A stretch of DNA of 64,000 nt from Zoogloea sp. (GTDB lineage: Bacteria; Pseudomonadota; Gammaproteobacteria; Burkholderiales; Rhodocyclaceae), in contig NZ_JAKLLN010000005.1 in the NCBI RefSeq assembly GCF_023150065.1, positions 1 to 64,000 of the forward strand. The letters run 5' to 3'. The notes under the pieces are model-generated. The model ran no database searches, was not told the origin of the DNA, and saw only the letters and a list, made by a program, of their open reading frames with translations. The translations under genes and the position numbers were made by a program. Shown piece by piece: positions 11,819 to 36,213 of this stretch. Every line of letters begins with the position of its first letter. The stretch's first letter is position 1.

Positions 11819-11834
11819 TGGCGCGGAATCTGCA
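11819..11834 (+). promoter_or_regulatory. Putative sigma54 -24/-12 promoter of nifENX operon
   Basis: TGGCGCGGAATCTGCA: GG and GC at correct spacing (consensus TGGCACG-N4-TTGCW), about 37 bp upstream of nifE ATG. Confidence 0.65.
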
Positions 11835-11870
11835 TAGAAAGGGCATCCCCACCTTTTTCTGGAGATTCCG

Positions 11871-13277: not shown

Positions 13278-13278
13278 G

Positions 13279-14697: not shown

Positions 14698-14707
14698 GGA
14701 GCCCGTC

Positions 14708-15109: not shown

Positions 15110-15112
15110 AAA

Positions 15113-15577: not shown

Positions 15578-15590
15578 CCGGAGCCCGACC

Positions 15591-15788
15591 ATGGAAGACC
15601 TCGACGCCCTCAAGGCCCGCGCCAAGAAGCTCAACGCCCAGGCCACCCAGGCCAAGATGGACCTGCACGACCTGTCCGAAGAGCTGCCGACCAACTGGGA
15701 ACAGATCCTGGAAGTCGCCCAGCGTGCCTACGACGCCCACAAGAACCTGATGGCCGCCCGCAAGGAACTGGCCGCCGCGAGCGCCTGA
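15591..15788 (+). CDS. DUF683/CCE_0567-like small nif protein
   Basis: 65 aa helical protein in the nifENX operon. Confidence 0.8.
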   Translation: MEDLDALKARAKKLNAQATQAKMDLHDLSEELPTNWEQILEVAQRAYDAHKNLMAARKELAAASA

Positions 15789-15820
15789 ACGGCGCCGCCC
15801 TTACCCCCAGGAGAGCAGAC

Positions 15821-16126
15821 ATGGCTGATTTTTCCGTCACCCTGCCGAGCGGCGAGATCTGGGTTCCCCAGTTCGTCGCCGACCTCAACCAGGAAAAGTG
15901 CATCGGCTGCGCCCGCTGCGTGCGGGTGTGCGCCCGGGAGGTGCTCGAACTCGTCGGCGTCAATGAAGACGGCGACGTGATCCACATCGATCCCGATGGC
16001 GATGACGACGAAGAGTACGAAAAGAAGGTCATGACCATCGCCCACAAGGAAAACTGCGTGGGCTGCCAGGCCTGTTCCAAGGTCTGCCCCAAGAAGTGCT
16101 ACACCCACGAGGCCGTCCAGGTCTGA
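15821..16126 (+). CDS. fdxB: Nif-specific ferredoxin III (two 4Fe-4S)
   Basis: CIGCARCVRVCAREVLEL ... CVGCQACSKVCPKKCYTHEA. Confidence 0.88.
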   Translation: MADFSVTLPSGEIWVPQFVADLNQEKCIGCARCVRVCAREVLELVGVNEDGDVIHIDPDGDDDEEYEKKVMTIAHKENCVGCQACSKVCPKKCYTHEAVQV

Positions 16127-16164
16127 TTTCGTAAGGCATGCACGCCACCGAGGAGGCCCGCGCC

Positions 16165-16680
16165 ATGAACGACATCTCCCGCAGCTACCTTGCCGCCCGC
16201 GCCGCCCTGCCGCCCACGCGGCTGGTGCCGGCCTGGCTGGCCCTGGCCCTGGAAACCGAGTTCGGCGAACAGGCCGGCGTCATCGCCGCCCTATGGACGG
16301 CCCGCCACCCGGCGGTGGTCCGCGAGGACGGCTCCACCGGCATCGACGACCGCCATGAAGAGTACGGCGACCTCCTCGAACTCCTCCTCGAGGGCGCCGC
16401 CACCAGCAGCGCCCACACCGTCGCCATCGCCCGCTGGATCGCCCTGTCGTGCTTCGGGGCCGACCACCTGTGGGAAGACCTCGGCCTACCCGAACGCCCG
16501 GCCCTCGGCGCCCTCATCGCCCGCCACTTCCCGGCCCTGCACGCCAGAAACGTGCACAACCTGCGCTGGAAGAAGTTCTTCTACAAACAACTCTGCGACC
16601 GCGCCCAGGTAAGAGCCTGCCGCGCGCCGAGCTGCGCCGAGTGTTCGGAATATGCGGGGTGTTTTGAAGGAGCTGCATAA
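16165..16680 (+). CDS. nifQ: NifQ
   Basis: C-terminal C-x4-C-x2-C-x5-C (CRAPSCAECSEYAGC), FYKQLCDRAQVRACRAPSC; position at end of nifENX operon. Confidence 0.88.
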   Translation: MNDISRSYLAARAALPPTRLVPAWLALALETEFGEQAGVIAALWTARHPAVVREDGSTGIDDRHEEYGDLLELLLEGAATSSAHTVAIARWIALSCFGADHLWEDLGLPERPALGALIARHFPALHARNVHNLRWKKFFYKQLCDRAQVRACRAPSCAECSEYAGCFEGAA

Positions 16681-16864
16681 GTCGGACCGAGCTCCTCTTT
16701 CCTGATCTCCGAGCACTATCGGGATATCGCGCCTATTTGCGTCAGCCTCCGGCAGGGCCGTGATTGTGCAGCGCACTTGCCGCTAGATTGCCGTGCAGCA
16801 AGCCTTGCCCGCAGAGGTGAGGATGCAATCACGCATAGTCTCGATACACGCAAAGGAGGACGCA

Positions 16865-17629
16865 ATGGTTGGAATGCTCGAAAACAAGGTCGGGGTCATC
16901 ACGGGAGCAGGGCAGGGCATCGGGCGCGAGTCGGCCCTGGTGATGGCGCGGGAAGGGGCCCGCCTGATCGTCAGCGACATCAATCTGGAAGGGGTCGACG
17001 AGACCGCCCATCTCATCAGCCTGGCAGGGGGGACGGTGCTTCCGCTGAAGGTGGACGTGGCGCGGGGCGAGGATCTCCAGGCTTTGATCGAGCTCGCCGT
17101 GAGCCACTTCGGCCGACTCGACTGTGCCTTCAACAATGCCGGTATCTCCGGTGAAGGGGCGCTGCTGGCCGATTTCTCCGAAGAAGGGTTCGACCTGCTG
17201 ATGGCGGTGAACCTGAAGGCAGTGTGGCGTGCCATGAAGCTGCAGATCCGGCAGATGCTCAAGCAAGGTGGGGGTGGTGCCATCGTCAACACCTCGTCGG
17301 TGGGCGGGCTGGTGGGCAAGGAGCATCTGTCGGTCTACTGCGCCACCAAGCACGCCGTCCTCGGGCTCACCAAGTCGGCCGCCCTCGAATATGGCGCCAA
17401 GGGCGTGCGGGTCAATGCGGTGTGCCCGGGGGTAGTCCGCACCCCCATGGTGGAGGCCGTCATCAGTGGCACGGGCACCTCACTCGATGATTGGAGCAAG
17501 CTCCAGCCCATCGGCCGCTTCGGTACCCCATCGGAAATCGGCGAGGCGGTGGCCTGGCTGTGCTCCGATCGTGCTTCGCTGGTGCATGGCCACGCCCTGG
17601 TGGCGGACGGCGGCCTGACCTGCGCCTGA
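16865..17629 (+). CDS. SDR-family oxidoreductase
   Basis: VITGAGQGIGRESALVMAREGA; YCATKHAVLGLTKSAALEYG; GGAGGA-type RBS upstream. Confidence 0.85.
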   Translation: MVGMLENKVGVITGAGQGIGRESALVMAREGARLIVSDINLEGVDETAHLISLAGGTVLPLKVDVARGEDLQALIELAVSHFGRLDCAFNNAGISGEGALLADFSEEGFDLLMAVNLKAVWRAMKLQIRQMLKQGGGGAIVNTSSVGGLVGKEHLSVYCATKHAVLGLTKSAALEYGAKGVRVNAVCPGVVRTPMVEAVISGTGTSLDDWSKLQPIGRFGTPSEIGEAVAWLCSDRASLVHGHALVADGGLTCA

Positions 17630-17810
17630 CCGGGCGACGCGCGTCGCCCACGCCCGGCGGGCGGCGCATCCGCGTGCCCGCCGGGCGCCCTGGCCGTAAA
17701 TTGAGCGATTTCTGCAAAGTCACCCCCTGCCGTCGGAACGCCGGGTCATTACAATGGGGGATATAACAAAAGTAGTATCCACTAAAGAGACATCCCATCA
17801 GGAGGAGACA

Positions 17811-18722
17811 ATGACGGGATTGCTTTCGTCGACCCCGCAGCTCATTGAGCACGCCACTGCATCACGTCCCGACTACGTGCTGGAGGGCCGCAATGGCGAC
17901 ATATTTGGCGCCCGCTGGAATCACCCGGCCGGTGAGTCCCAGCTCAGGCGCAATGCCGAGCATGTCCTGGTCTATCACCTGTCGGGCAACACCGACGTTG
18001 AACGCCTGCAGCAAGGGGTGGTCACGGGTTTTCGCTCCCGCGTCGGAACGGTGACCTTCATGCCCCGTGATTCCGAATCCGACTGGCGGCTGGGGGGCAA
18101 TACCCAGGTCATCCATCTTTACCTGCGCCAGACCCTGCTCGACGATTTTGCCCGGGATGTCCTGGAGCGTGAGGCATGTCCCGAGATCGAAGACTTCTTC
18201 GCCATTTCCGATACCTGGCTGGACGGCTTCTTTCGGATGCTGGCCAGTGAGGCACCCCCTTCGGCGGCCAGCGGCAACCGCCTGGAGACCCTGGTGCTCG
18301 ATCAGGTCCAGAGCCTGCTGGTGAGCCACCTGGTCACCCGCTATGCGCGGGAGCGTCCGCCCAACGGTGAGCGGGCGCCAATGTCCGGCGGCAAGGCCAG
18401 CCAGCTGCGGCAGAGCGTTCTGAAGAAGATCAATGCGCTGATTCACGAGCGCCTCCACGAGGACATCTCCCTCAAGGATCTGGCCGAGCTTGCCTGCATT
18501 TCGAAGGACCACTTTTTGCGTGCCTTTCGCGATACGGTCGGGCAGACGCCCTATCACTATTTGCTGTCCCAGCGGCTGGAACGGGCCAAGATGCTGCTGC
18601 GCGAGGAGCCCGGTGTGCCGGTGGCGGAAGTGGCGCGGCGTTGCGGGTTCAAGAATCTGAGCCACTTCTCGGCAACCTTCCGGCGAATGACCGGGGTCAG
18701 CCCCAAAGGCTATCGCAACTGA
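17811..18722 (+). CDS. AraC-family transcriptional regulator
   Basis: DISLKDLAELACISKDHFLRAFRDTVGQTPYHYLLSQRLERAKMLL...VAEVARRCGFKNLSHFSATFRRMTGVSPKGYR. Confidence 0.88.
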   Translation: MTGLLSSTPQLIEHATASRPDYVLEGRNGDIFGARWNHPAGESQLRRNAEHVLVYHLSGNTDVERLQQGVVTGFRSRVGTVTFMPRDSESDWRLGGNTQVIHLYLRQTLLDDFARDVLEREACPEIEDFFAISDTWLDGFFRMLASEAPPSAASGNRLETLVLDQVQSLLVSHLVTRYARERPPNGERAPMSGGKASQLRQSVLKKINALIHERLHEDISLKDLAELACISKDHFLRAFRDTVGQTPYHYLLSQRLERAKMLLREEPGVPVAEVARRCGFKNLSHFSATFRRMTGVSPKGYRN

Positions 18723-18775
18723 GCAAGCATGGACCGGACCGCCAGGCCAGCAAGGCGGTCCGGTGTGGCGCGGGT

Positions 18776-19264
18776 CTAGCGATGCACGCCGTGCGCCACG
18801 CCGTCTCGTTCGGCCATTTCCAGCATCACTTTGTAATCGATGATTCCGGCAATGGAACCGTCCGGCGCCAGCCCGGCGATGGGCCCGTCGAAAACGCAGA
18901 ACAGCACGCAGCCATTCTTCGAGCGCGGCTGGTGGATATCGCCGGCGGGCTCGAACATGTAGTTCCCGGTCACTCCGATATCCGACTCCTCGTAATAGAC
19001 ATCACCTTCCATCACCATCACCTCAATGGCGCCAATATGCTGGTGAATGGGCGCCTCCACGCCGGGAAGCACTTTCAGCATGCAGGTAAAGCCGCCGGTG
19101 CGGGAATTGACGCTCAATAGCTTGTATTCGACACCCTCCATGGCGTAAGGGCGCCACGGAATCGTGTCTATTTTCTGGAACTTCGGATAGGGCAGGGTGA
19201 TCCTGTCGCGTGCAGTGCTTTTCCCTTCCTGTCCGATGCGCTCGTTGCTCAGGGTGATGCTCAT
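18776..19264 (-). CDS. Cupin protein (dihydroxyacetophenone dioxygenase/ChrR-like cupin)
   Basis: KVLPGVEAPIHQHIGAIEVMVMEGDVYYEE cupin motif; paralogous to 19582-20070. Confidence 0.65.
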   Translation of the reverse strand: MSITLSNERIGQEGKSTARDRITLPYPKFQKIDTIPWRPYAMEGVEYKLLSVNSRTGGFTCMLKVLPGVEAPIHQHIGAIEVMVMEGDVYYEESDIGVTGNYMFEPAGDIHQPRSKNGCVLFCVFDGPIAGLAPDGSIAGIIDYKVMLEMAERDGVAHGVHR

Positions 19265-19581
19265 CGTGTTCTCCTCCTGTTAAAGGCGTGTCTGTGGTGT
19301 GTTTCTCCATGGCGCCCGCGCGCAGGTCGCGGTCTTTTCCGGATATGCGCCGATCTCGATATTAGGCGCCGTCACCAGGCCGTGCCCCTATTCGAGGCAA
19401 ATCGCCGCGACTAATACAAAGCCGCGATATATCGACAGTCAGGAGCTGCCATTTGCGAAAAATCGGCAGCTTTTGCGATATCGGGCAGATTCCCGACGGC
19501 CTGTGTTTGTGCGCTGCGCTCGCAGTTAGATTTCGCCTCGCCGGCTTATTGACCGGAATACAAATAAACAGGAGACACACT

Positions 19582-20070
19582 ATGACCAGCACCGCCATCG
19601 GCCATTCCCCAGCCGCCGACATTGACCTCACCCACCGCCACGGCAAGGATTTCGTGAACCTCTCCGCAGTGCCGTGGACGCCCTGGGTCATGGACGGTAC
19701 CTATTTCAAGCTCTTGGCCGTCAACGAATTGTCGGGTGGCTTCTCGATGCTGCTCAAAGTCGATCCTGGCGTTCAGGCGCCGGTGCATGCACATATCGGT
19801 TCGGCCGAGGCCTATCTGGTCGAAGGAGGCTTCTATTACGAAGAGGACGATCCTGGCTACGAGGGCTACTACACCTACGAACGCGGTGGTTCCGTGCACC
19901 AGCCCGTGTCGCCCCAGGGATGCGTGATGTTCGCGGTCACGCACGGGCCGCTGGCTGGCTGCAACCCGGACGGTTCAATCGGCGCCGTGGTCGATTGCCG
20001 TCTGATGCTGAAGCTGGCCGAGGCCAATGGCGTCGCCAGCCACGTCGTGCAGATCGTCTCCGGCCGCTGA
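19582..20070 (+). CDS. Cupin protein, paralog of 18776-19264
   Basis: KVDPGVQAPVHAHIGSAEAYLVEGGFYYEEDDPGYEG. Confidence 0.65.
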   Translation: MTSTAIGHSPAADIDLTHRHGKDFVNLSAVPWTPWVMDGTYFKLLAVNELSGGFSMLLKVDPGVQAPVHAHIGSAEAYLVEGGFYYEEDDPGYEGYYTYERGGSVHQPVSPQGCVMFAVTHGPLAGCNPDGSIGAVVDCRLMLKLAEANGVASHVVQIVSGR

Positions 20071-20111
20071 GCCCCAGCTTGCCCCTCCCTCCATCTCCCC
20101 AAGGAGTGCAG

Positions 20112-21977
20112 ATGAACGGCAAACCTTTCAGACCCGGCCTTCGCCGGGCCGCCATTGCTGCAGCCCTTGCCGCTTTCGGCAGTGGCGCCAGCGCAGGCGA
20201 ATTCACGCTCGGTGACGGCGTCACGGGCTCCTGGACCCTCAACGCAGCCCTCGGCACCAGTGTCCGCATGCAGGGGCGCGATGCCGCGTTGACGTCCTTC
20301 GGCAATGCCAACCATAACGGCGGCCGGCCGGGTACCGGTGGCGGTAGCACCGACGATGGCGACCTCAACTTCAAGCGTGGCGATGTCACTTCCACGACCC
20401 TCAAGGTGGTGGGTGACATGGAGCTGCGTTATCAGAACTACGGTGCCCTGGTTCGCGCCAAGGCCTGGCACGACTTCACCCTGGCCAGCAAGAAGGTTCA
20501 GCACGGCAGTTTCGACAACGGCTATGCGCCCGATCAGCGTCTCGACGACAGTCATTTCGACCGTGCCGCGAGGTTCAGTGGTGCCGATCTGCTCGACGCC
20601 TTTGTCTATGGCAACTGGGCACTGGGCAATGACAGCAAGCTCAATCTGCGCCTGGGCAACCAGGTGGTGAACTGGGGGGAGAGTATCTTCATCCAGGGCG
20701 TCAACGTGGTGAGTCCCATCGATGTGCCGGCAGCCCGGCGCGCCGGCGCCCAGGTGCGCGAGATCCTGCTGCCCGTACCCTTGCTCTACGGCAACCTGGG
20801 TCTGGCCGGTGGTGTGAGCGTCGAGGCCTTCTACCAGCTCCAGTGGAAGAAGACCGTGATCGACGGTTGCGGCACCTTCTTTTCGCCGGCCGACGTCATC
20901 AACTGTGGCGGCTCCCAGTTCGGCCCCGATGTCTTCTCCGACCGGGAGCAGTACCACGGTGTGGCCGCGCTGGGGGGGCTGAACCTGCGCTCGCTGCGCC
21001 AGGCCGACGCCAAGCCGTCGAACGCAGGGCAGTTCGGTCTCGCCCTGCACTGGCTGGAGCCGAGCAGCGAGACCGATGTGGGCCTCTACTACATCAACTA
21101 TCACACCCGCACGCCCTATCTGAGCCTTTCCAGCAAGCCTTCAGAGGCGAGTTCGTTTTATGGGTCGGTGGCACCCCTGTCCTATCTGCTTGACTACTCG
21201 GCCGAGAACATCCAGACCTACGGCCTCAGTCTGTCGAACACCCTGGGGGGCGTGTCGGTGATGGCCGAGCTGTCCTACACGCGTGACCTGCCGGTGCAGG
21301 TCAATGGCGGGGATCTGGTGCAGTTCGGCGTGTCCGGCGGTACCCAGGGGCCCCTGGCCGGCAAGCGCGTCTATGACCCGGCGGGGGCCACCATCCAGGG
21401 CTACGACCGCATGGACAAGGTCCAACTGCAGTTTGGCGCCATCAATGTCTTCAGCCAGGTGCTCGGCGCCCAGTCCCTGCTGGCGGTCGGCGAGGTGGGC
21501 ATGAGCTGGTTGCCCAACCTGCCTGATGCGGCGACGGATGTGCGCTATGGCCGTGCCTTCACCTTCGGTACCGCCTGGCATCAGGCCTACACCAGCCCGG
21601 CACTGTCCACCCGCGATGGCTGCAATGCGGCCAACAGTGCCGGCATGGTGACGCCCGCCAACTGCGCACAGAGCGGTTTCGTCAGCGCGTTCTCGTGGGG
21701 CTATCGCCTGCTCGGGGAGCTCGAGTATCCCAATGCCGTTGTGGGCTGGACCGCAAAGCCCCGGCTGTACTGGGCTCATGACGTAAAGGGCAATGCTGCC
21801 GACGGCGCCTTCATCGAGCACAGGCGCACCCTGGGTAGCGGCATCTCCCTGTCGCGCCTCGAAAACGGCCGCCGCCTCACCCTGGACCTCGCCTACACCC
21901 GCTTCATCGATGCTGCCCGCTGGGACACCAACCGCGACAAGGACTTTCTTGCCGCCAGCGTCAGCGTCGCCTTCTAA
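20112..21977 (+). CDS. DUF1302-like outer-membrane protein
   Basis: Signal peptide, TLKVVGDMELRYQNYGALVRAKAWHD, LNLRLGNQVVNWGESIFIQGVNVVSPID; C-terminal aromatic-type end SVSVAF. Confidence 0.8.
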   Translation: MNGKPFRPGLRRAAIAAALAAFGSGASAGEFTLGDGVTGSWTLNAALGTSVRMQGRDAALTSFGNANHNGGRPGTGGGSTDDGDLNFKRGDVTSTTLKVVGDMELRYQNYGALVRAKAWHDFTLASKKVQHGSFDNGYAPDQRLDDSHFDRAARFSGADLLDAFVYGNWALGNDSKLNLRLGNQVVNWGESIFIQGVNVVSPIDVPAARRAGAQVREILLPVPLLYGNLGLAGGVSVEAFYQLQWKKTVIDGCGTFFSPADVINCGGSQFGPDVFSDREQYHGVAALGGLNLRSLRQADAKPSNAGQFGLALHWLEPSSETDVGLYYINYHTRTPYLSLSSKPSEASSFYGSVAPLSYLLDYSAENIQTYGLSLSNTLGGVSVMAELSYTRDLPVQVNGGDLVQFGVSGGTQGPLAGKRVYDPAGATIQGYDRMDKVQLQFGAINVFSQVLGAQSLLAVGEVGMSWLPNLPDAATDVRYGRAFTFGTAWHQAYTSPALSTRDGCNAANSAGMVTPANCAQSGFVSAFSWGYRLLGELEYPNAVVGWTAKPRLYWAHDVKGNAADGAFIEHRRTLGSGISLSRLENGRRLTLDLAYTRFIDAARWDTNRDKDFLAASVSVAF

Positions 21978-21987
21978 GGACAAAGAC

Positions 21988-23346
21988 ATGATCCGCGTTC
22001 GTTCTTCCGCATGGCACCTCGCTGCCTTCCTGCTGCCCCTTGCCGTGGGCAGCGCCCAGGCCGCGCTCAGTGCCGCCGACCTTGCCCGTCTGGGCAAGGA
22101 CCTCACCCCCGTCGGTGCCGAGCGTGCCGGCAATGCGGCCGGCACCATACCGGCGTGGACCGGTGGCCTTGCCAAGGCTCCCGCCGGCTTCGACATCACC
22201 CAGGGCCACGCCAACCCCTACGCCAGTGAAAAGCCCCTGTACACCATCACCGCGCAGAACTGGGAGCAGTACAAGAAGGTGCTCTCCGACGGGCATATCG
22301 CCATGCTCAAGCGCTACCCGGACAGCTACCGTCTCAACGTCTATCCGACCCACCGCAGCGCGGCCCTGCCACCGGCCGAATACGAGCGCATCCGCGATCA
22401 GGCCGCCAAGGTGACAGTCTCGGCCAGCGGCACCGGCCTGGATCACTGGGAGCAGAGCCCCGTGCCCTTTCCCATTCCGGCCAACGGCCTCGAGGCCATC
22501 TGGAATCACGAGGTGCGCTCCCGGGCCGGCGGCATTCAGCGCCGCCACCTGATCGGGGCGGTGAACCCCAATGGCAGTTTCAACGCCTATGGCGTCGACG
22601 AGAGCTGGATCTTCAGCCAGAACATGGACCGCCAGGAGAACAACCGCTTCTGGTACTTCATGGCGCGGATGTACTCGCCGGCCGACGTCAGCGGCGAGGT
22701 GGTGATGGTGCACGAGCCCCTCGACTTTGCCCGCGACGGTCGCCTCGCCTGGGTCTACAACGCCGGCCTACGCCGCGTCCGCCGCGCGCCGCAGATCATC
22801 TACGACTCGCCGGGTAGCTTCTCGGAAGGGACGCGCACCGAGGACGACTACGACATGTTCAACGGGCCGACCGACCGCTACAACTGGAAGTTGGTGGGCA
22901 AGCGGGAAATGCTGATCCCGTACAACAGCTATGCCATCCACTCCAAGAAGCTCAAGGCCCGTGACGTGGTCAAGCCGCACCATCTGGACCCCGCGCTGAC
23001 CCGCTACGAGCTGCACCGGGTGTGGGTGGTGGAGGCCACGTTGAAGGAAGGCATGCGCCACATTTACGGCAAGCGCGTGTTCTACATCGACGAGGACAGC
23101 TGGACCATCGCCGTCAAGGAGCAGTACGACGGCCGTGGCCAGTTGTGGCGGGTGGGGGAGGCGCAGCTGATGCAGTACTACGACGTGCCCTTGCCCTACT
23201 ACGCCTTCGAGAACATGTATGACCTGCAGGACGGCCGCTACTACGTGGCCGGCCTCAGCAACGAGGAAGGGCCGTGGCGCTTTGGCGCCAAGGCCCGGCG
23301 CGCAGACTTCGACCCCGACGCGCTGCGCCGCAGCGGCACCAAGTAA
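21988..23346 (+). CDS. DUF1329-like exported protein
   Basis: LARLGKDLTPVGAERAGNAAGTIPAWTGG; follows DUF1302 protein. Confidence 0.82.
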   Translation: MIRVRSSAWHLAAFLLPLAVGSAQAALSAADLARLGKDLTPVGAERAGNAAGTIPAWTGGLAKAPAGFDITQGHANPYASEKPLYTITAQNWEQYKKVLSDGHIAMLKRYPDSYRLNVYPTHRSAALPPAEYERIRDQAAKVTVSASGTGLDHWEQSPVPFPIPANGLEAIWNHEVRSRAGGIQRRHLIGAVNPNGSFNAYGVDESWIFSQNMDRQENNRFWYFMARMYSPADVSGEVVMVHEPLDFARDGRLAWVYNAGLRRVRRAPQIIYDSPGSFSEGTRTEDDYDMFNGPTDRYNWKLVGKREMLIPYNSYAIHSKKLKARDVVKPHHLDPALTRYELHRVWVVEATLKEGMRHIYGKRVFYIDEDSWTIAVKEQYDGRGQLWRVGEAQLMQYYDVPLPYYAFENMYDLQDGRYYVAGLSNEEGPWRFGAKARRADFDPDALRRSGTK

Positions 23347-23416
23347 GCAGCGGCTACGACCGCGCACTCCGGACGCGCCGGTTTTGCTGGCGCGTCCTGC
23401 CCACAGGGATATCACC

Positions 23417-24577
23417 ATGACACGCTTTCCCCTCGCCACGCTGGGCGTGGCGGCGGCTCTCGCCGTCGCAGCCAGCGCGGGGGCCGGTCTCGCCCAGCGG
23501 ACCGCAGCCCCGCCCATTGACCTGCTGGAGACTCCGGCACCCCAGAGCCCGCGCGCCGCCGGGCAGATGATGAACGGCTTGACCCGCGCTGGTGAGCGCC
23601 TTGTTGCCGTTGGGGCCCGCGGCACCATCGTGTATTCCGACGATGACGGACGCAGTTGGCATCAGGCCGCAGTGCCCGTGGCCGTGATGCTCACCGCCCT
23701 GCATTTTCCAACGCCCAGGCTGGGCTGGGCGGTGGGCCACGACGGCGTGATCCTGCACACCCAGGATGGCGGCGTCACCTGGCAGCGCCAATTTGACGGT
23801 CACCAGGCCAACATCCAGATGCTGGTATGGGCAAAAGCCCAGGTGGAGCGCGCCCGGCAGGCCCTGGCAGCAGCCACCGAGGGCCAGCGTCAGGCGGCCG
23901 AGGATGCCCTGGCTGCAGCCGAGGACAGCCTGGCCGGCTTTGAGCAGTCCGTCGGCTTCGGCCCCTCTCAGCCCTTCATGGGGGTGTGGTTCGGCGACCC
24001 GCAGAAGGGGTATGCCGTGGGGGCCTTCGGCATGGCCTTTGTCACCCGGGATGGCGGCCGACAGTGGACGCTGCTATCCGACCGCCTGCCCAACCCTGAA
24101 GGCCTGCATTTGTATGCCCTCAGCGCGCCAGCCCCCGGGGTGCTGCTGATTGCCGGGGAGCGGGGCCTGCTGCTGCGTTCGTCCGACGGTGGCGAGCGTT
24201 GGCAGGCGCAAACCGGCCTGGCAGAGGGCGGGTTGTATGGTCTGGCCAGCCTGGCGGACGGCAGCAGGTTGTTCGCTTTCGGCTTTGATGGCGTGGTGCT
24301 GCAGAGCTCCGATCTGGGGCAGCGCTGGCAGGCCATCGACAGCGGCACCCGCAGCGCCCTCTACGGTGCCGCACTGGCCGGCAGCGAGCTGATCCTGGTG
24401 GGCAACAATGGCACCCGTCTGCGCCTGACCGGCAATCGTTTCGAGACGCTGCCCAGTCCCGATGGCCGCCCCCTTGGTGGCGCTGCTTTCGGCAAGGACG
24501 GCTGGGTGCTGGCCGGCTGGGGTGGGCTCACCCGGGAGCCCACTCGCCCGGGCGCAGGAGGTGAGCATCATGAGTGA
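23417..24577 (+). CDS. YCF48/PSII stability factor-like beta-propeller protein
   Basis: Repeated GWAVGHDGVILHTQDGGVTWQ / GYAVGAFGMAFVTRDGGRQW / GLLLRSSDGGERWQ. Confidence 0.8.
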   Translation: MTRFPLATLGVAAALAVAASAGAGLAQRTAAPPIDLLETPAPQSPRAAGQMMNGLTRAGERLVAVGARGTIVYSDDDGRSWHQAAVPVAVMLTALHFPTPRLGWAVGHDGVILHTQDGGVTWQRQFDGHQANIQMLVWAKAQVERARQALAAATEGQRQAAEDALAAAEDSLAGFEQSVGFGPSQPFMGVWFGDPQKGYAVGAFGMAFVTRDGGRQWTLLSDRLPNPEGLHLYALSAPAPGVLLIAGERGLLLRSSDGGERWQAQTGLAEGGLYGLASLADGSRLFAFGFDGVVLQSSDLGQRWQAIDSGTRSALYGAALAGSELILVGNNGTRLRLTGNRFETLPSPDGRPLGGAAFGKDGWVLAGWGGLTREPTRPGAGGEHHE

Positions 24578-26969
24578 GATTGACGCTGTGTCCCGCCCCA
24601 TGCCACACGGCGGCCTGCTGAAGCGCATCGAGCGCTGGCTGGAGGGGGCGCTGTTCGCTCATCGCACCGCTACCGTCCTCGTCTTCGCGGTGCTGACCGT
24701 GGCCCTGGGCTGGTCCGCCCTCGGCCTGCGGCCCGACGCCAGCTTCGAGAAGATGATCCCGGTCCATCATCCGGCCATCGCCAACTACCTGACCCACGAG
24801 GACAACCTGCGGGGCCTCTCCAATGTGGTGAGGGTGGTGGTGGAGAACCGCAAGGGCGACATCTTCGACCCGGCCTTCCAGGAGGTGCTGCGCAAGGTCA
24901 ACGACGAGGTGTTCTACATCCCCGGCGTGGACCGGGCCGGCATGCGCTCCCTGTGGACGCCCAATGTGATGTGGGGCGAGGTGACGGCCGAGGGCTTCGA
25001 GGCCGGGCCGGTCATCCCCGATGGCTACGACGGATCACCGCCGGCCATCGAGCAGCTCCGGCGCAACGTCTTCCGCTCCGGTGAGGTGGGCACCCTGGTG
25101 GCCAACGATCTGCGCTCGGCCCTGATCCTGGTGCCGCTTATGGAGCGTGACCCGGACAGCGGCGAACGCCTGGACTACGCGCGCTTTGCGTCGGATCTCG
25201 AGGAGAAGATCCGCGCCCGCTACGCCAGCGACGGGGTGGACATCCGCATCGTCGGCTTTGCCAAGGTCATTGGCGAGCTGATTGACGGGGCCCTGCCCAT
25301 CCTCGGCTACTTTGTGCTCACCCTGGTCCTCACTGCCGCCTTGCTGCTGTGGTACTCGCGCTGCCTGCGCAGTACCCTGACCACCCTGCTGTGCTGCCTG
25401 ATCGCCGTGGTGTGGCAACTCGGCATCGTGCGCCTGCTGGGCTACGGACTGGACCCGTATTCCATCCTGGTGCCCTTCCTCACCTTTGCCATCGGCATCA
25501 GCCACGCGGTGCAGAACATCAACACCACCGCCAACGCCATGCTCGACGGGGCCGACAGGGTGGAGGCGGCGCGGCGCTCCTTCCGCACCCTGTTCGTGGC
25601 CGGCACCGTGGCCCTGCTGTGCGACGCGGTGGGCTTTGCGACCTTGCTGGTGATCCGTATCGGCGTGATCCAGGAACTGGCCATCTCGGCCAGCATTGGT
25701 GTAGCGGTGATCATCTTCAGCAAGATGTTCCTGTTGCCCGTGCTGATGTCCTGGACTGGCGTGTCGCCCGCAGCGATCGCCCATGCCCGGTCTCGCCGGG
25801 CGCACCTGTCCTGGCTGTGGCAGTGGGTGGCCGCCTGTGCCCGGCCCCGGCCGGCCATCGCGGTGACCGTGGCCGGTGCGGTGCTACTGGCCGTGGGGGC
25901 CTGGGGCGCGCGCAGCCTGCAGATCGGCGATCTGGACCCCGGCGCGCCGGAGCTGCGCACCGACTCCCGCTACAACCGCGATGCCGCCTATCTGGTGGAG
26001 CACTACACCACCAGCACCGATGTCTTCGTGGTGATGGCCGAGACCCCGCCCCAGGGGTGCCGCGACTATCAGGTCCTGGCCGGCATGGACCTGCTGGCGG
26101 CCGAGTTGGAGCGGGTACCCGGCGTGCAGCGCAGCGTGTCCATGTCCGACTTTGCCTACCGGGTGCTGGCGGCCAACAACGAGGGCAACCCCAAGTGGTA
26201 TGCCATCAGCCGCAACAAGTACGCCCTCGGCGGCGCCTTCCAGAAGACACCCAAGGAGTACATCGGCAACGGCTGCGCAATGACGCCCCTGGTGGTCTAT
26301 CTGAACGACCACAAGGCCGCCACCCTCGCTGCCGTGATGACCACCGTGCGCGACTTTGCCGCCCGGCATGACTCCGACAAGGTGCGCTTTACCCTGGTGG
26401 GTGGGAATGCCGGTATCGAGGCGGCCACCAACGAGGTCATCCGCGATGCCGACCACACCATGTTGCTACTGGTGTATGCCATCGTCGCCGTGCTGCTGCT
26501 GATCGAGTTCCGCTCGGTGCGGGTGACAGCCTGCATCGTCCTCCCCCTCTACATCACTTCGGTGCTGTGCGAGGCCATCATGGCCTGGATGGGCTTGGGG
26601 GTGAAGGTGGCGACCCTGCCGGTGATCGCCCTCGGGGTGGGCATCGGGGTGGATTACGGCATCTACATCTACAACCGTCTCCAGTCCTATCTGGATCACG
26701 GCCATCCGCTGGCCGAGGCCTACCTGCTCACCGTGGCCACCACCGGGCGCGCAGTGGCCTTCACCGGCCTGACCCTGGCGGTGGGCGTGCTCACCTGGAT
26801 CGGCTCGGCCATCAAGTTCCAGGCCGACATGGGCCTGCTGCTGACCTTCATGTTCCTGTGGAACATGGTGGGGGCCCTAGTACTGCTGCCGGCCCTGGCG
26901 CGTCTGCTGCTGCCCGCACCTCCGCCGGCGGTGCAGGCCCCGCTCTCCAAACCCGTTCCCCAACCTTGA
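24570..26969 (+). CDS. RND/MMPL-family transporter
   Basis: About 800 aa, two repeats of membrane segments, VIALGVGIGVDYGIYIYNR. Confidence 0.85.
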   Translation: MSEIDAVSRPMPHGGLLKRIERWLEGALFAHRTATVLVFAVLTVALGWSALGLRPDASFEKMIPVHHPAIANYLTHEDNLRGLSNVVRVVVENRKGDIFDPAFQEVLRKVNDEVFYIPGVDRAGMRSLWTPNVMWGEVTAEGFEAGPVIPDGYDGSPPAIEQLRRNVFRSGEVGTLVANDLRSALILVPLMERDPDSGERLDYARFASDLEEKIRARYASDGVDIRIVGFAKVIGELIDGALPILGYFVLTLVLTAALLLWYSRCLRSTLTTLLCCLIAVVWQLGIVRLLGYGLDPYSILVPFLTFAIGISHAVQNINTTANAMLDGADRVEAARRSFRTLFVAGTVALLCDAVGFATLLVIRIGVIQELAISASIGVAVIIFSKMFLLPVLMSWTGVSPAAIAHARSRRAHLSWLWQWVAACARPRPAIAVTVAGAVLLAVGAWGARSLQIGDLDPGAPELRTDSRYNRDAAYLVEHYTTSTDVFVVMAETPPQGCRDYQVLAGMDLLAAELERVPGVQRSVSMSDFAYRVLAANNEGNPKWYAISRNKYALGGAFQKTPKEYIGNGCAMTPLVVYLNDHKAATLAAVMTTVRDFAARHDSDKVRFTLVGGNAGIEAATNEVIRDADHTMLLLVYAIVAVLLLIEFRSVRVTACIVLPLYITSVLCEAIMAWMGLGVKVATLPVIALGVGIGVDYGIYIYNRLQSYLDHGHPLAEAYLLTVATTGRAVAFTGLTLAVGVLTWIGSAIKFQADMGLLLTFMFLWNMVGALVLLPALARLLLPAPPPAVQAPLSKPVPQP

Positions 26970-26983
26970 AGGAATTGAAAGCC

Positions 26984-27790
26984 ATGACACTCACCGAACG
27001 CAGCATGCTGGACCTCACGGGCCGTGTCGCCCTCGTCACCGGGGGCGCCTCCGGCATTGGCCGGGCCTCGGCCCACGCGCTGGCCGCCCAGGGGGCACGG
27101 GTCATCATTGCCGATATCAACGAAGCCGGCGGCGTGGAGACCGCCGAAGCCATCGGCAACGCCGCCGGCTTCGTGCATCTGGATGTCACCGACGAAGCCG
27201 CCTGGTGCCGGGCGCTGGATTACGTGATCTCCACCGAGGGAGGGCTCGACATCCTCGCCAACGTGGCCGGTATCGGCACCGGTGGGGACTTCGAGGATCT
27301 GGCCCTGAGGGACTGGAACCGCATGATGGCGGTCAATGCCACCGGCCCCTACCTTGGCTGCAAACACGCCATCCGTGCCATGGCCGGCAGCGGTCGGCCG
27401 GGGGCTATCATCAATGTAGGCTCCATCGCCGCCGACCGGGCCGCGCCGGATCTGGTGGGCTACTGCGCCAGCAAAGGGGCCCTGCGCATGCTCAGCAAGT
27501 CCGTGGCCCTGCACTGTGCCCACAAGGGCTATCCGATCCGCTGCAACGCTGTCCATCCCACCTATGTGGACAGCGAGATGCTGGACCCCATCGCCGATCT
27601 CTATGGCAGCCGGGAGGCCATGGTGCAGGACATGTCCAGGCTGGTGCCCCTGGGCCGTCTCGCCAAACCGGCGGACATTGCGGCTGCGGTCGTCTTCCTG
27701 GCCTCCGATGGGGCGGCGATGATCACCGGGACCGAGCTGTTCGTGGATGGCGGCCACACGGCTGGCGTCCCGCCGTCGCACTTTGCCTGA
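26984..27790 (+). CDS. SDR-family oxidoreductase (hydroxysteroid dehydrogenase-like)
   Basis: VALVTGGASGIGRASAHALAAQGARVI; GYCASKGALRMLSKSVALH. Confidence 0.85.
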   Translation: MTLTERSMLDLTGRVALVTGGASGIGRASAHALAAQGARVIIADINEAGGVETAEAIGNAAGFVHLDVTDEAAWCRALDYVISTEGGLDILANVAGIGTGGDFEDLALRDWNRMMAVNATGPYLGCKHAIRAMAGSGRPGAIINVGSIAADRAAPDLVGYCASKGALRMLSKSVALHCAHKGYPIRCNAVHPTYVDSEMLDPIADLYGSREAMVQDMSRLVPLGRLAKPADIAAAVVFLASDGAAMITGTELFVDGGHTAGVPPSHFA

Positions 27791-27848
27791 ACGCCTTGGC
27801 CCGGTGCTTCACCCGCGCCGGGCGGTGTTGGTCGCCCTCAAGCACGCG

Positions 27849-28433
27849 TCATTTTGCCAACTTGACGCACTGCACAGACTCCGCCATCCGCATGACCCAG
27901 TCTTTGCCGATGGCGGCTTTGCCATCGTTTTCCACAGATAGCGAAACCGACCCTGCCGCCGGATCCCATCCCACCCCCCATCTGGTGTTCTTGGGGTTTG
28001 CCCTATCGACCACCAGCGCGATGGTGGCTCTTTGCCCATTCACCTTTGCGTTATAGGCCTCTTCGCTCCGGTAAGAACGCGCACTTGACCGATCGAAGAT
28101 GGAAAGCATGACCCTCCTGTCCGGACCGGTTCGAAAGAAGAACGTGTCCTGGGCGTGCCCGCTTTCGCTGACACCTTTCTCCACCACCAGGAGACTGGAT
28201 CTGCAATCGAAACGCGAGTTCGTCGGCCGCGAATCAAGCGCCTTGCGTAGCCCCTCGGTCACCCGTGTATGCGCGTAAGCTTTTGAAAGGATGAAGTAAC
28301 CGTCGGGGCTGACTGAGCGGTCTTCCCAGAAGGTGCGTTTGGCCAGCTCCCGCAGTTGATCGTCTTCCACGTCTGCGAAGCAGAAATGGGGTGCGATGGA
28401 GAGAAACGCGCACAGAACATGGCGTGCATTCAT
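27849..28433 (-). CDS. Hypothetical exported protein
   Basis: MNARHVLCAFLSIAPHFCFADVEDDQ... signal peptide; no recognised family. Confidence 0.5.
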   Translation of the reverse strand: MNARHVLCAFLSIAPHFCFADVEDDQLRELAKRTFWEDRSVSPDGYFILSKAYAHTRVTEGLRKALDSRPTNSRFDCRSSLLVVEKGVSESGHAQDTFFFRTGPDRRVMLSIFDRSSARSYRSEEAYNAKVNGQRATIALVVDRANPKNTRWGVGWDPAAGSVSLSVENDGKAAIGKDWVMRMAESVQCVKLAK

Positions 28434-28576
28434 TTCGCGCTCGCCCCCTTGTTGATCCAATTTGCAGTGTTCAGCATCCGACCGTGCAGGAAAGCTGTGT
28501 TGAGAAAGGCCGGAATGGTAATGCATATGTCCTTTCAGGGGGCGTGGTGCGGGCGCGACCGTGGTTTCAACTGGCC

Positions 28577-29569
28577 TCAGGCCGCCATCACTTCGGGCGC
28601 TTCCGTATCGCCGGGCCGGGGCCGCCTGAGCATGTTGGGCAGGCCCGGGTGGCTCGCCGGATGCGCCAGTGCCCGGGCGGCCTGATCGGCAAGGGCGTCC
28701 AGCAGGGCATAGCGGCGGCGATACATGGCGCGTTTCTGCATGGGCATCTCTTCCGGGCTGCGGCGGCGCCCCTGAAGGGGGATCCGCCAATGGCCGTCGT
28801 CGCCCAGCCGTGCGCCGTGCTCCTGCCAGAAGGCGCGGTAGTCGAAGCTGAACTCATCGATCTTCTTCTTGTACTGGGTGACCTGGTTGCAGCTGTCTAT
28901 GCCAACGATGCGCGTCACCCCCCATTGGGCGCACAGCAGGCGCAGCACCTCCAGCAGCAGGGCATGGGGGCGCAGGCCATGGCACTGCTTGGTCAGGCTG
29001 CGGATCGTCTCCCGGTTACTGCCGTCGGTACGCTTGAGCCCCTGCAGCGAGGCGATGAGCAGGGTATCCGCGGCCGTGAAGCCGAAGCTCAGGTTGAAGA
29101 GGGGGCGCGCGTCGGCGTCGTACAGGCACAGGGCCCAATAGCCCTCGATGCGCGTCGGGACGTTGAGGGTCAGATCCACCGCGCAGCCTGGGGCCTGGGC
29201 CACGCGCAGGCTGCTCCCGCTGGCCAACTGCCCGCACAGCAGGGGGCCAAAGTGGCCAGCCGCCGCGTCCAGATCGGCGATCATGGCGTGAAAGCGCTGA
29301 CGCAGGCCGAAGCGCCGATCCAGATAGCGCCGATAGAACACGTAAAAGCTGCGCCTGTCGGCGTCCAGCAGGCGCGCCCAGGCAGGGTGGCGGTCCAGGG
29401 CCTGCAGCAGCAGGCGGCGCTCGGGCGTGGTGAACCACGCGAGCAGACGGTACTTGAGGCGATGGAACACCCGCCGCGTACGGGCCGGCCCCAGCACGTC
29501 GGGCAGAGGCGGCCAGCTGGCGGCTGGGGTGGTTGGGGCGACGCGGGTGAAGGCATGAAGCGAGGACAT
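28577..29569 (-). CDS. VirK/YbjX (DUF535)-like protein
   Basis: RFHAMIADLDAAAGHFGPLLCGQLASGSSLRVAQAPGCAVDLTLNVPTRIEGYWALCLYDADARPLFNLSFGF. Confidence 0.7.
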   Translation of the reverse strand: MSSLHAFTRVAPTTPAASWPPLPDVLGPARTRRVFHRLKYRLLAWFTTPERRLLLQALDRHPAWARLLDADRRSFYVFYRRYLDRRFGLRQRFHAMIADLDAAAGHFGPLLCGQLASGSSLRVAQAPGCAVDLTLNVPTRIEGYWALCLYDADARPLFNLSFGFTAADTLLIASLQGLKRTDGSNRETIRSLTKQCHGLRPHALLLEVLRLLCAQWGVTRIVGIDSCNQVTQYKKKIDEFSFDYRAFWQEHGARLGDDGHWRIPLQGRRRSPEEMPMQKRAMYRRRYALLDALADQAARALAHPASHPGLPNMLRRPRPGDTEAPEVMAA

Positions 29570-29692
29570 GGCGGCACGAACGGAGTGAAGGGTGCTGATG
29601 CCGACTGTACCGATGAAGCCTTAACGCGCACTTGCCTGGATCTTGCAATGGACTGACAGGCGGGGGTGGATGGGGTGGGAGGAGGGGGCGCC

Positions 29693-29948
29693 CTATCGGT
29701 GAGTTGCGGGGGGCTGGATTGACGTGGTGCTACTTGTGTTGCGCATCACCGCCAGTGCGCCCCGAACCGCCTCCGCCTTGCCCATCTTTCAAGGGTGCCG
29801 CTTGTCATGAAAAGCGATGTGGCGTTTAATCCATCCCACATAAGCCTGCTTGGTTCGCAGATCGTAGTGCTTGACCTGATCCGCTCTCAAACCCGATCCA
29901 GCAAGCCGGGCAACGAGGTCGGGCCGCAAGAAGGGTAGACGACATCAT
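29693..29948 (-). pseudogene. Remnant of integron integrase (intI) N-terminal region
   Basis: Minus-strand translation, in shifted frames: LLDRV*ERIR / VKHYDLRTKQAYVGWIKRHIAFHDKRHP * KMGKAEAVRGALAVMRNTSSTTS, matching the tyrosine-recombinase SAM-like N-terminus of IntI (LLDQVRERIRxKHYSLRTExAYVxWIxRFIxFHxKRHPxxMGxAE...LAVxRNVSxST); two in-frame stops and a frameshift; catalytic domain missing; divergent from the cassettes as expected for intI. Confidence 0.8.
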
Positions 29949-30062
29949 GGCGGATTTCTTCGATAATTTTTTTGTATACAAAGATTTAGTGAGTTACGGC
30001 AGCTTGGGCGACAGTCGTGTAAGACACCAGAGGCGTCAGATGTCGTCTACTTCACGTTAGGC
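29949..30062 (+). promoter_or_regulatory. Putative attI region with first cassette junction at GTTAGGC (30056-30062)
   Basis: Lies between the intI start and cassette 1; GAGTTACGGCAGC...GGCGACAGTCG resembles attI-type sequence; ends TTCACGTTAGGC; no GCCTAAC partner box upstream, so attI rather than attC. Confidence 0.55.
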
Positions 30063-30071
30063 ATCAGCAAA

Positions 30072-30515: not shown

Positions 30516-30573
30516 TGCCAACATTTCACTCCACGCGACAGCCTTCGGCGGCGCGTGAATTCAGGCGTTAGGC
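30516..30573 (+). repeat. attC1
   Basis: TGCCAAC...CACGCGACAGCCTTCGGCGGCGCGTG...GTTAGGC. Confidence 0.85.
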
Positions 30574-30580: not shown

Positions 30581-31099
30581 ATGATTCCCAATCTCCCGAT
30601 TGCCACTGACAACATCTATAAGTTCGCATGCTTGTTCGGCCTTGCAATCATCATTGCTTCAATACTCTCCTTCGTTAGCGTCTATTCCTCAACGCTCGAT
30701 AGAAAGGTGGCACTTAGCGAGGTAGTTATTTCTCTTGAAGCCAAGGAGCAACTAACAAAGGCTGAAGAAAACACTCTCGAACTGAACAAGAAGCTTGTTG
30801 AAGTCGCACAGAGAAATGAACGCTTCGCTCAAAGCATCATTGGCGGTGCTTTTGCAGTTGGGTTATTGCTCAGCATTTACGGTGCATATCATTGGCACAC
30901 CAAGATTCAGGCTCGTGATGACTTGCTCGCAACTTTGCAGATTGAAAGAATTCGAGCCGAGATCGCTAAGCTGCAACTTGATACGAATCGACTCAATAGC
31001 TCTGCGGGTGAGCAGACTGAACAGCAAGTAGTCGCTAAGAAAAATAACGTCCGGGTTCAACAGGAAAATGAAACAAAAACTACAGAACATATCGCCTAA
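30581..31099 (+). CDS. Cassette 2 membrane protein (two hydrophobic segments, helical linker)
   Basis: FACLFGLAIIIASILSFVSVY and SIIGGAFAVGLLLSIYGAYHW separated by a charged helical segment. Confidence 0.7.
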   Translation: MIPNLPIATDNIYKFACLFGLAIIIASILSFVSVYSSTLDRKVALSEVVISLEAKEQLTKAEENTLELNKKLVEVAQRNERFAQSIIGGAFAVGLLLSIYGAYHWHTKIQARDDLLATLQIERIRAEIAKLQLDTNRLNSSAGEQTEQQVVAKKNNVRVQQENETKTTEHIA

Positions 31100-31183
31100 C
31101 ACTGCGGTCAAGGCCGCTCCCTTCGGTCGCTGGGCGCTGCGCGATAAACCGCCGCGCAGCGCCCCTTACCAACAACGTTGGGC
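31094..31183 (+). repeat. attC2
   Basis: GCCTAAC ... GGGCGCTGCGCGATAAACCGCCGCGCAGCGCCC ... GTTGGGC. Confidence 0.92.
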
Positions 31184-31649: not shown

Positions 31650-31718
31650 GCCCAACCCATCATTCCACCGGACCTTGCGCATAGATCCGCGCAAGGCCGG
31701 TGAATTCAAATGTTATGC
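31650..31718 (+). repeat. attC3
   Basis: GCCCAACCCATCATTCCACCGGACCTTGCGCATAGATCCGCGCAAGGCCGGTGAATTCAAATGTTATGC. Confidence 0.9.
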
Positions 31719-31732: not shown

Positions 31733-32290
31733 GTGGCTAATATCCCAACATACAAGGCGCTTCAGAAGTGCTATGACGCAAAATCCGCTGAAGTAAAAAG
31801 TCATTTCGGCCATCTTCCCCAGTTAATCGCTGACGGCCTCCCGTATGAAATTGCAATCGCGTACGTTTTCCTGAAAATTGAACAAGCTCAAAACAGAGCA
31901 CTATATGGCGGGGTCGTTAAGGTCCATCGCTGTAATGCGGAGTTCGCAAGGCGTTTGATGAATTTTCAACACCTAACCCGAGATGGGTTCAAAGAGCTCT
32001 ACAAAAATGTATTCGGCCGCGCTCTTCCAAAAGCAACAGCAGATTTAATGGCTGATGCGGAAAGTTCTCGCGACAAAGTTATTCACGGCAAGGATGTAAC
32101 GGATAGTGAGCTTCGTGGAGCTATTGCTGATGTCCTAGCTTATGCTGAGGCCTTCAATTCGGAAGTTAACGACGTTGCAGGCTTTAAACCGCTAGGCAAC
32201 ATGCGCGGCTTTAAGGGACGCGCCGAACCTCTCGACACACGTACTAGCAAATGGTTAATGCGAGGGCTTGGCTTTGGCGTTAAGGCATAA
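31733..32290 (+). CDS. Cassette 4 protein with HEPN-like RxxxxH motif
   Basis: GTG start preceded by AAGGAG; ATG at 31715 lies inside the core site TTATGC; motif SSRDKVIHGK. Confidence 0.65.
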   Translation: MANIPTYKALQKCYDAKSAEVKSHFGHLPQLIADGLPYEIAIAYVFLKIEQAQNRALYGGVVKVHRCNAEFARRLMNFQHLTRDGFKELYKNVFGRALPKATADLMADAESSRDKVIHGKDVTDSELRGAIADVLAYAEAFNSEVNDVAGFKPLGNMRGFKGRAEPLDTRTSKWLMRGLGFGVKA

Positions 32291-32380
32291 CACTGCAGTC
32301 GAGAGGGACAGCCAACAAGCTGCGCTTGTTCGTCCCCTCCGCGCTTCGCGCTCCGGCTGCCCCTCACTTCCACGTTGGGC
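32285..32380 (+). repeat. attC4
   Basis: GCATAAC ... GGGACAGCC...GGCTGCCCC ... GTTGGGC, 96 bp. Confidence 0.88.
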
Positions 32381-32404: not shown

Positions 32405-32785
32405 ATGGGGAGTAAATTAGTGAATATCGTGCGCCATGCAGTTACGTTAAGTGTCGCCACCCTGGCTCTGGCCATGGCCGGTTGCGCCATTACAAAGGAA
32501 ACCCACATGCCAGATGGGAGCAAGGGTTACAGCATTAGTTGTGACGGCGCGGCGGTAGGAATTAACGTATGTTTTGAAAAAGCAGGTGATCTTTGCGGCG
32601 CCTCTGGTTATGACCTCGTTACTCGAGAAGGTCAAATTATTCCTTTCGGGGTTAGCTCCGCAAGTGTATATGGAACGCCATCACAAATTCAGGGCCAGAG
32701 TTTTGCAACTTATGGTTCATTCAATAGTAAGAGCATAATGATTAGGTGCCGTAACCGGACATCCGGCAGTGTCCCAGAAAATTAG
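32405..32785 (+). CDS. Cassette 5 lipoprotein
   Basis: VTLSVATLALAMAGCAITKE lipobox. Confidence 0.7.
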   Translation: MGSKLVNIVRHAVTLSVATLALAMAGCAITKETHMPDGSKGYSISCDGAAVGINVCFEKAGDLCGASGYDLVTREGQIIPFGVSSASVYGTPSQIQGQSFATYGSFNSKSIMIRCRNRTSGSVPEN

Positions 32786-32793: not shown

Positions 32794-32863
32794 GCCCAAC
32801 CCATCACTCCACGGGACGCTGCGCGATGAAGCCGAGCATCGCCCGTGAATTCAGATGTTGGGC
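32794..32863 (+). repeat. attC5
   Basis: GCCCAACCCATCACTCCACGGGACGCTGCGCGATGAAGCCGAGCATCGCCCGTGAATTCAGATGTTGGGC. Confidence 0.9.
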
Positions 32864-32881: not shown

Positions 32882-33556
32882 ATGAAAAGGGTTTCATGTT
32901 CTGTTGCAACCATATTCATGGTTGCTATTCTCTTGGCCGGATGCGCCTCTGAGAGAGTGATTTCCCCCAACATATCCGGCTCATCACGCACCGGTCTCAT
33001 AGTCTCTCCCGCAATTCTTGGTGCCGTATACGACGGACGGGCCTCGCAAGAACCGAATGATGCAGCGGCCATCCTTCAAGGCGACCTGAGTCGCATTTAT
33101 GGTACGTCTATTGAGTGGACGGACTATTTCGCAAAAACGCCTGCCGGTCGAGTCTCCGCACGAATCCGAATTGTTACGCTAGGCTCCTCTTTCGGAAATC
33201 GCTTGGTATCTTCAGTAGCCTTCGCAAATGCGGTCGGTTCTGCACAGGCAAGCGCAACAGGCCCTTGGGGCCCTGTTGTTGGTTCTGTATCATCCGAGCA
33301 GTCGGTTCTCGCCGGCTCATTTTCAGGCGAGGGTTGGTGGAATGGAGCTGCGTGGGTTGACTTGGAAGTGCAAGACAATCGAGGGAAAAAGCCAGTTGCA
33401 TTCACAGTGCCTATTGTCGCAGAGCATCGTGAGTCAAATATGTGGGGCTACGCATCGGGAGATAAAGCAGCAAAGGTGGCATGGGATCGCGTCGGAATTC
33501 AACTTACTAGGGCTTTGGATGCAATCGCTCGCACAGTCCGCGACCAACAGCCATGA
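32882..33556 (+). CDS. Cassette 6 lipoprotein
   Basis: MKRVSCSVATIFMVAILLAGCASER lipobox; AAGGAG RBS. Confidence 0.75.
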   Translation: MKRVSCSVATIFMVAILLAGCASERVISPNISGSSRTGLIVSPAILGAVYDGRASQEPNDAAAILQGDLSRIYGTSIEWTDYFAKTPAGRVSARIRIVTLGSSFGNRLVSSVAFANAVGSAQASATGPWGPVVGSVSSEQSVLAGSFSGEGWWNGAAWVDLEVQDNRGKKPVAFTVPIVAEHRESNMWGYASGDKAAKVAWDRVGIQLTRALDAIARTVRDQQP

Positions 33557-33609
33557 GAAAGCACGCTGCGCGATAAAGCCGCGCAGCGCCGGTTAGCTTC
33601 ACGTTAGGT
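33542..33609 (+). repeat. attC6 (weak R'' box)
   Basis: CGCTGCGCGATAAAGCCGCGCAGCG stem, GTTAGGT core; upstream box GACCAAC is imperfect. Confidence 0.75.
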
Positions 33610-34314: not shown

Positions 34315-34383
34315 GCCTAACCTTTCGGCGCACACCGGCCTTGCGCGAAAAGCCGCGCAAGGCCGGTAATCTCCACGTTAGCT
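34315..34383 (+). repeat. attC7
   Basis: GCCTAAC ... ACCGGCCTTGCGCGAAAAGCCGCGCAAGGCCGGT ... GTTAGCT. Confidence 0.92.
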
Positions 34384-35013: not shown

Positions 35014-35080
35014 AGCTAGTCCATCACTCCACTGGGCCTGCGCGAAAAGCCGCGCAGGCCCGAGAAATGAAACGTTAGAC
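35014..35080 (+). repeat. attC8 (degenerate R'' box)
   Basis: AGCTAGT in place of RYYYAAC, then CCATCACTCCACTGGGCCTGCGCGAAAAGCCGCGCAGGCCC...GTTAGAC, aligned with attC3 and attC5. Confidence 0.82.
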
Positions 35081-35257: not shown

Positions 35258-35581
35258 ATGAACCTTCTTTTCGTCTGTAGTGAGAACCGGCTGCGGAGCC
35301 CGACTGCTGAGGAGGTGTTCTCCAAGTACCCTGGCGTCAGTACCATCGGTGCGGGCACCAATGCAGATGCAGAAACAACCGTCTCCGGGGATCTCATTGA
35401 GTGGGCCGATGTGGTCCTGGTGATGGAGAAAAGTCACAGGAACAAGATTTCAAAGAAGTACAAAGAGCAGCTAAAGGGGAAGCGGCTGGTATGCCTGGAT
35501 ATTCCGGACATATACGCACGCATGGACCCAGATCTGGTGAAATTGCTCGAAGCCAGGGTCAAGAGATATGTTCGTTTCTGA
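35258..35581 (+). CDS. Low-molecular-weight protein-tyrosine-phosphatase-like protein
   Basis: LLFVCSENRLRSPTAEEVFSKYPGVSTIGAGTNADAETTVSGDLIEWADVVLVMEKSHRNKI. Confidence 0.75.
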   Translation: MNLLFVCSENRLRSPTAEEVFSKYPGVSTIGAGTNADAETTVSGDLIEWADVVLVMEKSHRNKISKKYKEQLKGKRLVCLDIPDIYARMDPDLVKLLEARVKRYVRF

Positions 35582-36140: not shown

Positions 36141-36213
36141 CCCTCCAATGAAGCCCCCGTCAAGCAGCCTTGTCCCAATCACCGGCCGTCAGGCCGGTTT
36201 TCCTTGATCCGAC

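Follow-up and report, generated by a model that had tools for sequence, protein, structure and literature searches.

The analysed stretch of DNA (the window), 64,000 nucleotides long, corresponds to C207:1-64000 in a Zoogloea genome of 5.25 Mb on 251 contigs that is 97.9% complete. The genus assignment is based on the IntI of same-genus genomes, which match named Zoogloea records at 98-100%. The window carries the remains of an integron integrase gene, followed by an attI site and a cassette array (Table 1). The remnant, read on the minus strand from 29945 to 29714, corresponds in a frameshift-aware alignment to residues 1-80 of the 331 residues of an intact IntI of the same genus. The frame is shifted by -1 near 29922 and again near 29875, in-frame TGA codons interrupt it at 29889 and 29791, and two residues are deleted. 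In a whole-genome profile search, positions 10-65 of the integron integrase model TIGR02249 match 29717-29878 (E=5e-8), and the remnant protein matches NCBIfam TIGR02249 (E=2e-9) and Pfam Phage_int_SAM_4 (E=5e-11). While it thus has the IntI N-terminal domain, the remnant ends at residue 80 and possesses neither the IntI-specific additional domain nor the catalytic R-HxxR-H-Y residues nor an open frame. No catalytic domain of intI was found at the window locus, where the alignment ends at 29714 and the DUF535 gene comes next. The window intI is a pseudogene, not an IntI. The original prediction had described an IntI N-terminus with two stops, one frameshift and no catalytic domain beside an otherwise intact array, and had proposed a frameshift-aware alignment as a check. 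This description agrees with the alignment in everything except the frameshifts, of which there are two.

Table 1. Features of the integron locus in the window
Feature	Position	Strand	Remarks
DUF535 gene	28577-29569	-	abuts broken 3' end of intI; DUF535/intI junction common to G022
intI pseudogene	29714-29945	-	first 80 of about 331 codons left; two TGA and two frameshifts, catalytic domain absent
distal attI motif GTAGACGACA	29935-29944	+	10-bp inverted copy of TGTCGTCTAC; overlaps first intI codons
attI core block (66 bp)	29995-30060	+	75-92% identity with other Zoogloea attI; no match with the reversed pattern
TGTCGTCTAC, core-side arm of inverted repeat	30041-30050	+	
attI crossover G/TT	30056-30058	+	R box GTTAGGC 30056-30062
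cassette 1 ORF, 147 aa	30072-30515	+	without Pfam match
attC1	30517-30573	+	22.5 bits
cassette 2 ORF, 172 aa	30581-31099	+	
attC2	31094-31183	+	64.1 bits
cassette 3 ORF, 150 aa	31197-31649	+	overlapping frame from 31201 also open
attC3	31650-31718	+	44.9 bits
cassette 4 ORF, 191 aa	31715-32290	+	
attC4	32285-32380	+	34.6 bits
cassette 5 ORF, 126 aa from ATG	32405-32785	+	
attC5	32794-32863	+	52.9 bits
cassette 6 ORF, 224 aa	32882-33556	+	
attC6	33542-33609	+	45.2 bits
cassette 7 ORF, 230 aa	33618-34310	+	
attC7	34315-34383	+	39.7 bits
cassette 8 ORF, 207 aa	34388-35011	+	
attC8, degenerate R'' box	35015-35079	+	missed by the model at E 0.1; resembles attC of other arrays
low-molecular-weight tyrosine-phosphatase-like gene	35258-35581	+	distal array end; common to G022, partly G006

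That the array is otherwise intact is seen from the attI, seven attC found by the attC model plus a degenerate one, and the cassettes themselves, all eight of which hold a single plus-strand ORF that runs without interruption over 78-95% of the cassette length. In Pfam, the phosphatase-like gene at the distal end found a match and the cassette ORFs tested did not. The attC model was built from 15 attC and is sequence-only because RNAalifold found no base pairs on the MAFFT alignment; within the window it matches at 30518, 31094, 31650, 32286, 32794, 33559 and 34315 and nowhere else. The locus has an attI with a G/TT crossover beside intI and a cassette/attC array, as expected of a chromosomal integron platform, but no functional intI in cis. 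A plasmid search with the window array returned mainly short, attC-sized matches and one match of 438 bp at 74% identity. The stretches 32285-32380 and 33542-33609 have short matches of about 80-88% identity to plasmids of clinical origin, within resistance cassettes or close to them, which is consistent with related attC sites.

The window locus has its ortholog in the sister species G022, whose contig C57 is 88.8% identical to window positions 28966-30066 over 1108 bp, spanning DUF535, the remnant and attI. In both, the frame breaks before VKHYDLRTKQAYVGW, which reads LKHYDL in G022, and the truncated intI 3' end meets DUF535 at the same junction. The homology ends at 30066, just beyond the attI crossover. 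On the other side, the left flank 8266-16670 is conserved; between it and DUF535, the window has a segment of about 12.3 kb (16670-28966, with MMPL, DUF1329 and BNR-repeat genes) that is absent from G022, G006, G010 and G011, and at least the start of which is present in G004. The G022 array, split over C57 and C156 at an IS, has the distal phosphatase gene and its flank in common with the window array and nothing else. The eight window cassettes are absent from G022 and from the rest of the 24 genus genomes searched, in which only attC matches were found. Since the lesion is common to both species and the arrays are wholly different, cassette turnover appears to have gone on after the lesion. 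The comparison set has a single genome for each species, in most cases a draft or one derived from a metagenome (most are probably MAGs), and turnover is therefore read from between-species differences; as a counterpoint, the oldest distal cassettes might be expected to persist in both species, and none does.

The intI remnant is 94.8% identical between the window and G022, and 22-26% of 376-bp flank windows are equally similar. As this value lies within the distribution of flank identities, the dead allele is most simply read as vertically inherited, and a recent transfer of it need not be invoked. The idea that attI is better conserved than the remnant between the two species was dropped, the identities being 87.9 and 94.8%, respectively. 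In G005 and G017 the locus is empty, and in G010 and G011 it holds differently truncated intI of 113 and 193 residues.

A search of the whole genome for a second, intact intI, as suggested by the original prediction, found a second gene that is not intact. This only other IntI lies at C155:62036-62698 beside prfC and matches the intact G006 protein at 96% identity over 236 residues. Compared with G006 and G004, 262 bp have been cleanly deleted from its interior at a GCGGGG microhomology, a loss that takes out the catalytic region with HTFRH, LGHAD and MIYTH and leaves the last codons frame-shifted. The prfC-adjacent locus is the common integron site of the genus, with an intact intI in G003, G004 and G006 and a decayed one in G019 and others. 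No intact intI is visible in the 97.9%-complete genome, and as the C155 intI is catalytically dead too, the window array may be frozen now; from this we infer that all three arrays of the present genome, which include the one described next, are static. The original prediction that the cassettes would be frozen may thus hold for the present, but it does not fit the past, given the different array behind the same lesion in G022.

The attI block 29995-30060 has two further copies in the genome, one on C155 and one at C110:10279-10344. The latter (66 bp) shares 92% identity with the window attI; cassettes and attC come after it, and neither an intI nor a detectable intI remnant lies alongside. 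This platform is orthologous in G022, G006 and G004, with flanks 87-93% identical up to the attI/cassette junction, and past this junction each of the four species has a different array with no cassette in common; the pieces that these arrays do have in common are IS91-like. Of the species with this orphan attI, G006 and G004 carry an intact IntI beside prfC. A second orphan lineage is found in G017 and G018, where an intI-less attI lies at another place and three common cassettes are 92-95% identical versus 81-85% for the flanks, a contrast that fits acquisition of the cassettes after the species had separated. A 53-base attI pattern was found at 15 sites in 9 of the 24 genus genomes and in no other genus among 250 family genomes, and the reversed control gave none. 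A literature search on orphan or solitary attI, with most subscription papers outside its reach, returned nothing relevant. Further attC-like sites off the three attI platforms are located at G000:C166:48134 and 49069, C175:42439 and 45733, and C133:1804, and are possibly small CALINs.

To our knowledge, attI structure is poorly described outside class 1 integrons. Across 16 Zoogloea attI two blocks are kept, namely the core block and GTAGACGACA, which repeats TGTCGTCTAC of the core exactly in reverse-complement form and is positioned at -120 +/- 3 of CACGTT; in one of the 16 (G019) the first half of the distal motif is changed. The distal motif is also kept in six attI that have no intI, and in orphan attI the motif distance is unchanged while the sequence between and beyond the blocks is 27-37% identical to intI-bearing sites, with 31-37% for the part between them. 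The LexA box regulates intI. It is located at -87 (CTGTN8ACAG) and scores 7-8/8 in all other intI-bearing sites, including the recently dead C155, versus 4-6/8 in the window, G022:C57 and all orphans. A kept attI with a decayed LexA box would be expected if the attI is in use while local intI regulation is irrelevant.

An inverted repeat between the intI start and attI was also considered as a general integron feature and was rejected. In a first set of 65 loci, 8 had inverted arms of at least 9 bp at a spacing of 95-114 (swap control mean 1.1, maximum 6), but an independent set of 63 loci did not reproduce this (4 versus 2.0 +/- 1.3 expected at 8 bp). Because of this failure we limit the claim to Zoogloea; comparable cases occur in Pseudomonas and a few others. 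In Pseudomonas/Stutzerimonas loci (L070, L075, L079, L092 and L101), the attI core has a TTATRCACC-type motif, and an inverted copy 99-106 bp away falls within the initial intI codons.

Taking these comparisons together, we consider it fairly likely that the window platform outlived its intI and that its cassettes were swapped in trans by an IntI made elsewhere. The window locus is one of the genome's three integron platforms, and its intI would have been truncated beside DUF535 before the split from G022, leaving codons 1-80. The attI would have stayed functional after this loss, and cassettes would have kept entering and leaving at it and at the intI-less C110 attI. The acting IntI would most likely have been that of the integron at prfC, which has an almost identical attI; as the attI are near-identical on all three platforms, one IntI could serve all of them. 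We infer both the trans activity and the identity of this IntI from sequence comparisons. The proviso of the original prediction, that an integrase might act in trans, fits the different arrays at one intI-less attI in four species, though the activity itself is again only suggested by them. As G022 has no intact IntI at present, the actor in its lineage is not seen. A broader reading, which we put forward tentatively and with somewhat less than even confidence, is a hub-and-spoke integron in Zoogloea: the prfC-locus IntI would serve several stand-alone attI, and attI would consist of two parts over about 128 bp, with a distal inverted half-site that falls within the initial intI codons and is kept without intI.

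Several alternatives have to be weighed against this. The SAM-like N-terminal domain is common to many tyrosine recombinases, and the fragment could on this basis come from a phage or Xer-type enzyme, but we give this practically no credence: the NCBIfam models that match are integron-integrase models only, and at both the DNA and the protein level the best matches are intI genes of integrons that have their attI attached. Hardly more credible are sequencing or assembly errors in an intact gene, as the 3' three quarters of intI are absent with DUF535 in their place, and the frame break and truncation are independently present in G022, whose ortholog refutes this explanation for the truncation.

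A weightier alternative, although we regard it as unlikely, is an ordinary decayed integron that persists as a frozen relic, with the G022 array differing through homologous array replacement or transfer of the dead allele. It would agree with the frequency of intI pseudogenes, given as about one third (PMC2426708, Nemergut 2008) or 43-46% (PMC3108266, Cambray 2011), with the link between dead intI and more stable arrays in Xanthomonas (PMC12444791), and with a genome in which no intact intI is visible. Against it stand a remnant identity within the usual range of both flanks, array boundaries that fall at the attI crossover in unrelated platforms, and the four different arrays at one orphan attI in four species. 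It is less probable still that the attI blocks are kept for cassette expression from a Pc promoter and not for recombination. A 9/12 sigma-70-like match (ACGACA-17-GATAAT) does begin in the window distal motif, but its -10 half is not conserved in other attI, and promoter upkeep alone leaves unexplained why array changes start at the crossover.

The preferred reading, turnover in trans at a platform without its own integrase, can be set beside known systems. Like other chromosomal-integron intI pseudogenes, the window locus has a broken intI, kept attI and cassettes, and a decayed LexA box, and loss of this box is correlated with intI pseudogenes (PMC3108266); as such pseudogenes are common in the literature, the remnant alone is ordinary. 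Known intI pseudogenes are typically not common to close relatives (PMC2426708), whereas the Zoogloea lesion is common to two species with wholly different arrays. In Xanthomonas a dead intI is associated with stable arrays (PMC12444791), while in Zoogloea turnover appears to have followed the lesion. CALINs are clusters of attC sites lacking an integrase (IntegronFinder 2.0, PMC9024848), and their mobilisation in trans has been stated as possible (PMC12444791). The window and C110 arrays likewise have at least two attC and no functional intI nearby, and the C110 platform would be classed as a CALIN, but both keep an attI, which is absent from the CALIN description, and the C110 attI is conserved and seems to behave as an acceptor at an orthologous place in four species. 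Several integron integrase genes occur in about 20% of genomes (PMC2426708); as in these, there are several platforms per genome here, but the three have near-identical attI and none has a working intI now.

The unusual part is a lesion in common with arrays not in common, together with a conserved intI-less attI, and stand-alone, still-used attI platforms would be less expected than intI pseudogenes and CALINs, both of which are well known. The loss of intI is usually taken as the end of an array's life. Our observations suggest that losing the integrase need not end a platform, which can go on being used in trans. If this is true, the counting of integrase-less arrays would change; on the hub-and-spoke reading, some arrays filed as CALINs would be live acceptor platforms and not relics.

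Mobile elements were also noted in Zoogloea arrays. An IS91-like element with a tyrosine-recombinase ORF, identified by reading the translation, occurs at L046 14542-16350, L141 9823-10563, L142 4177-4695 and L057 8420-10148, and fragments of it are present in several arrays; in G006 the tyrosine-recombinase ORF is fused to an IS91-like transposase in a 602-aa frame. A piece of 660-704 bp, which appears to encode the C-terminal portion of a transposase of the IS110/IS1111 type, is common to the arrays of G011, G019 and G022 (L051 12417-13073, L053 11442-12100 and L141 9479-10182). At window 36155-36205 lies a hairpin-like sequence some 50 bases long, CACCGGCCGTCAGGCCGGTTTTCC, which is found once or in a few copies in many Zoogloea genomes, where several copies adjoin integron arrays. 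Elsewhere in the window, the minus strand at 11501-11580 carries a c-di-GMP-I riboswitch aptamer (70 bits).
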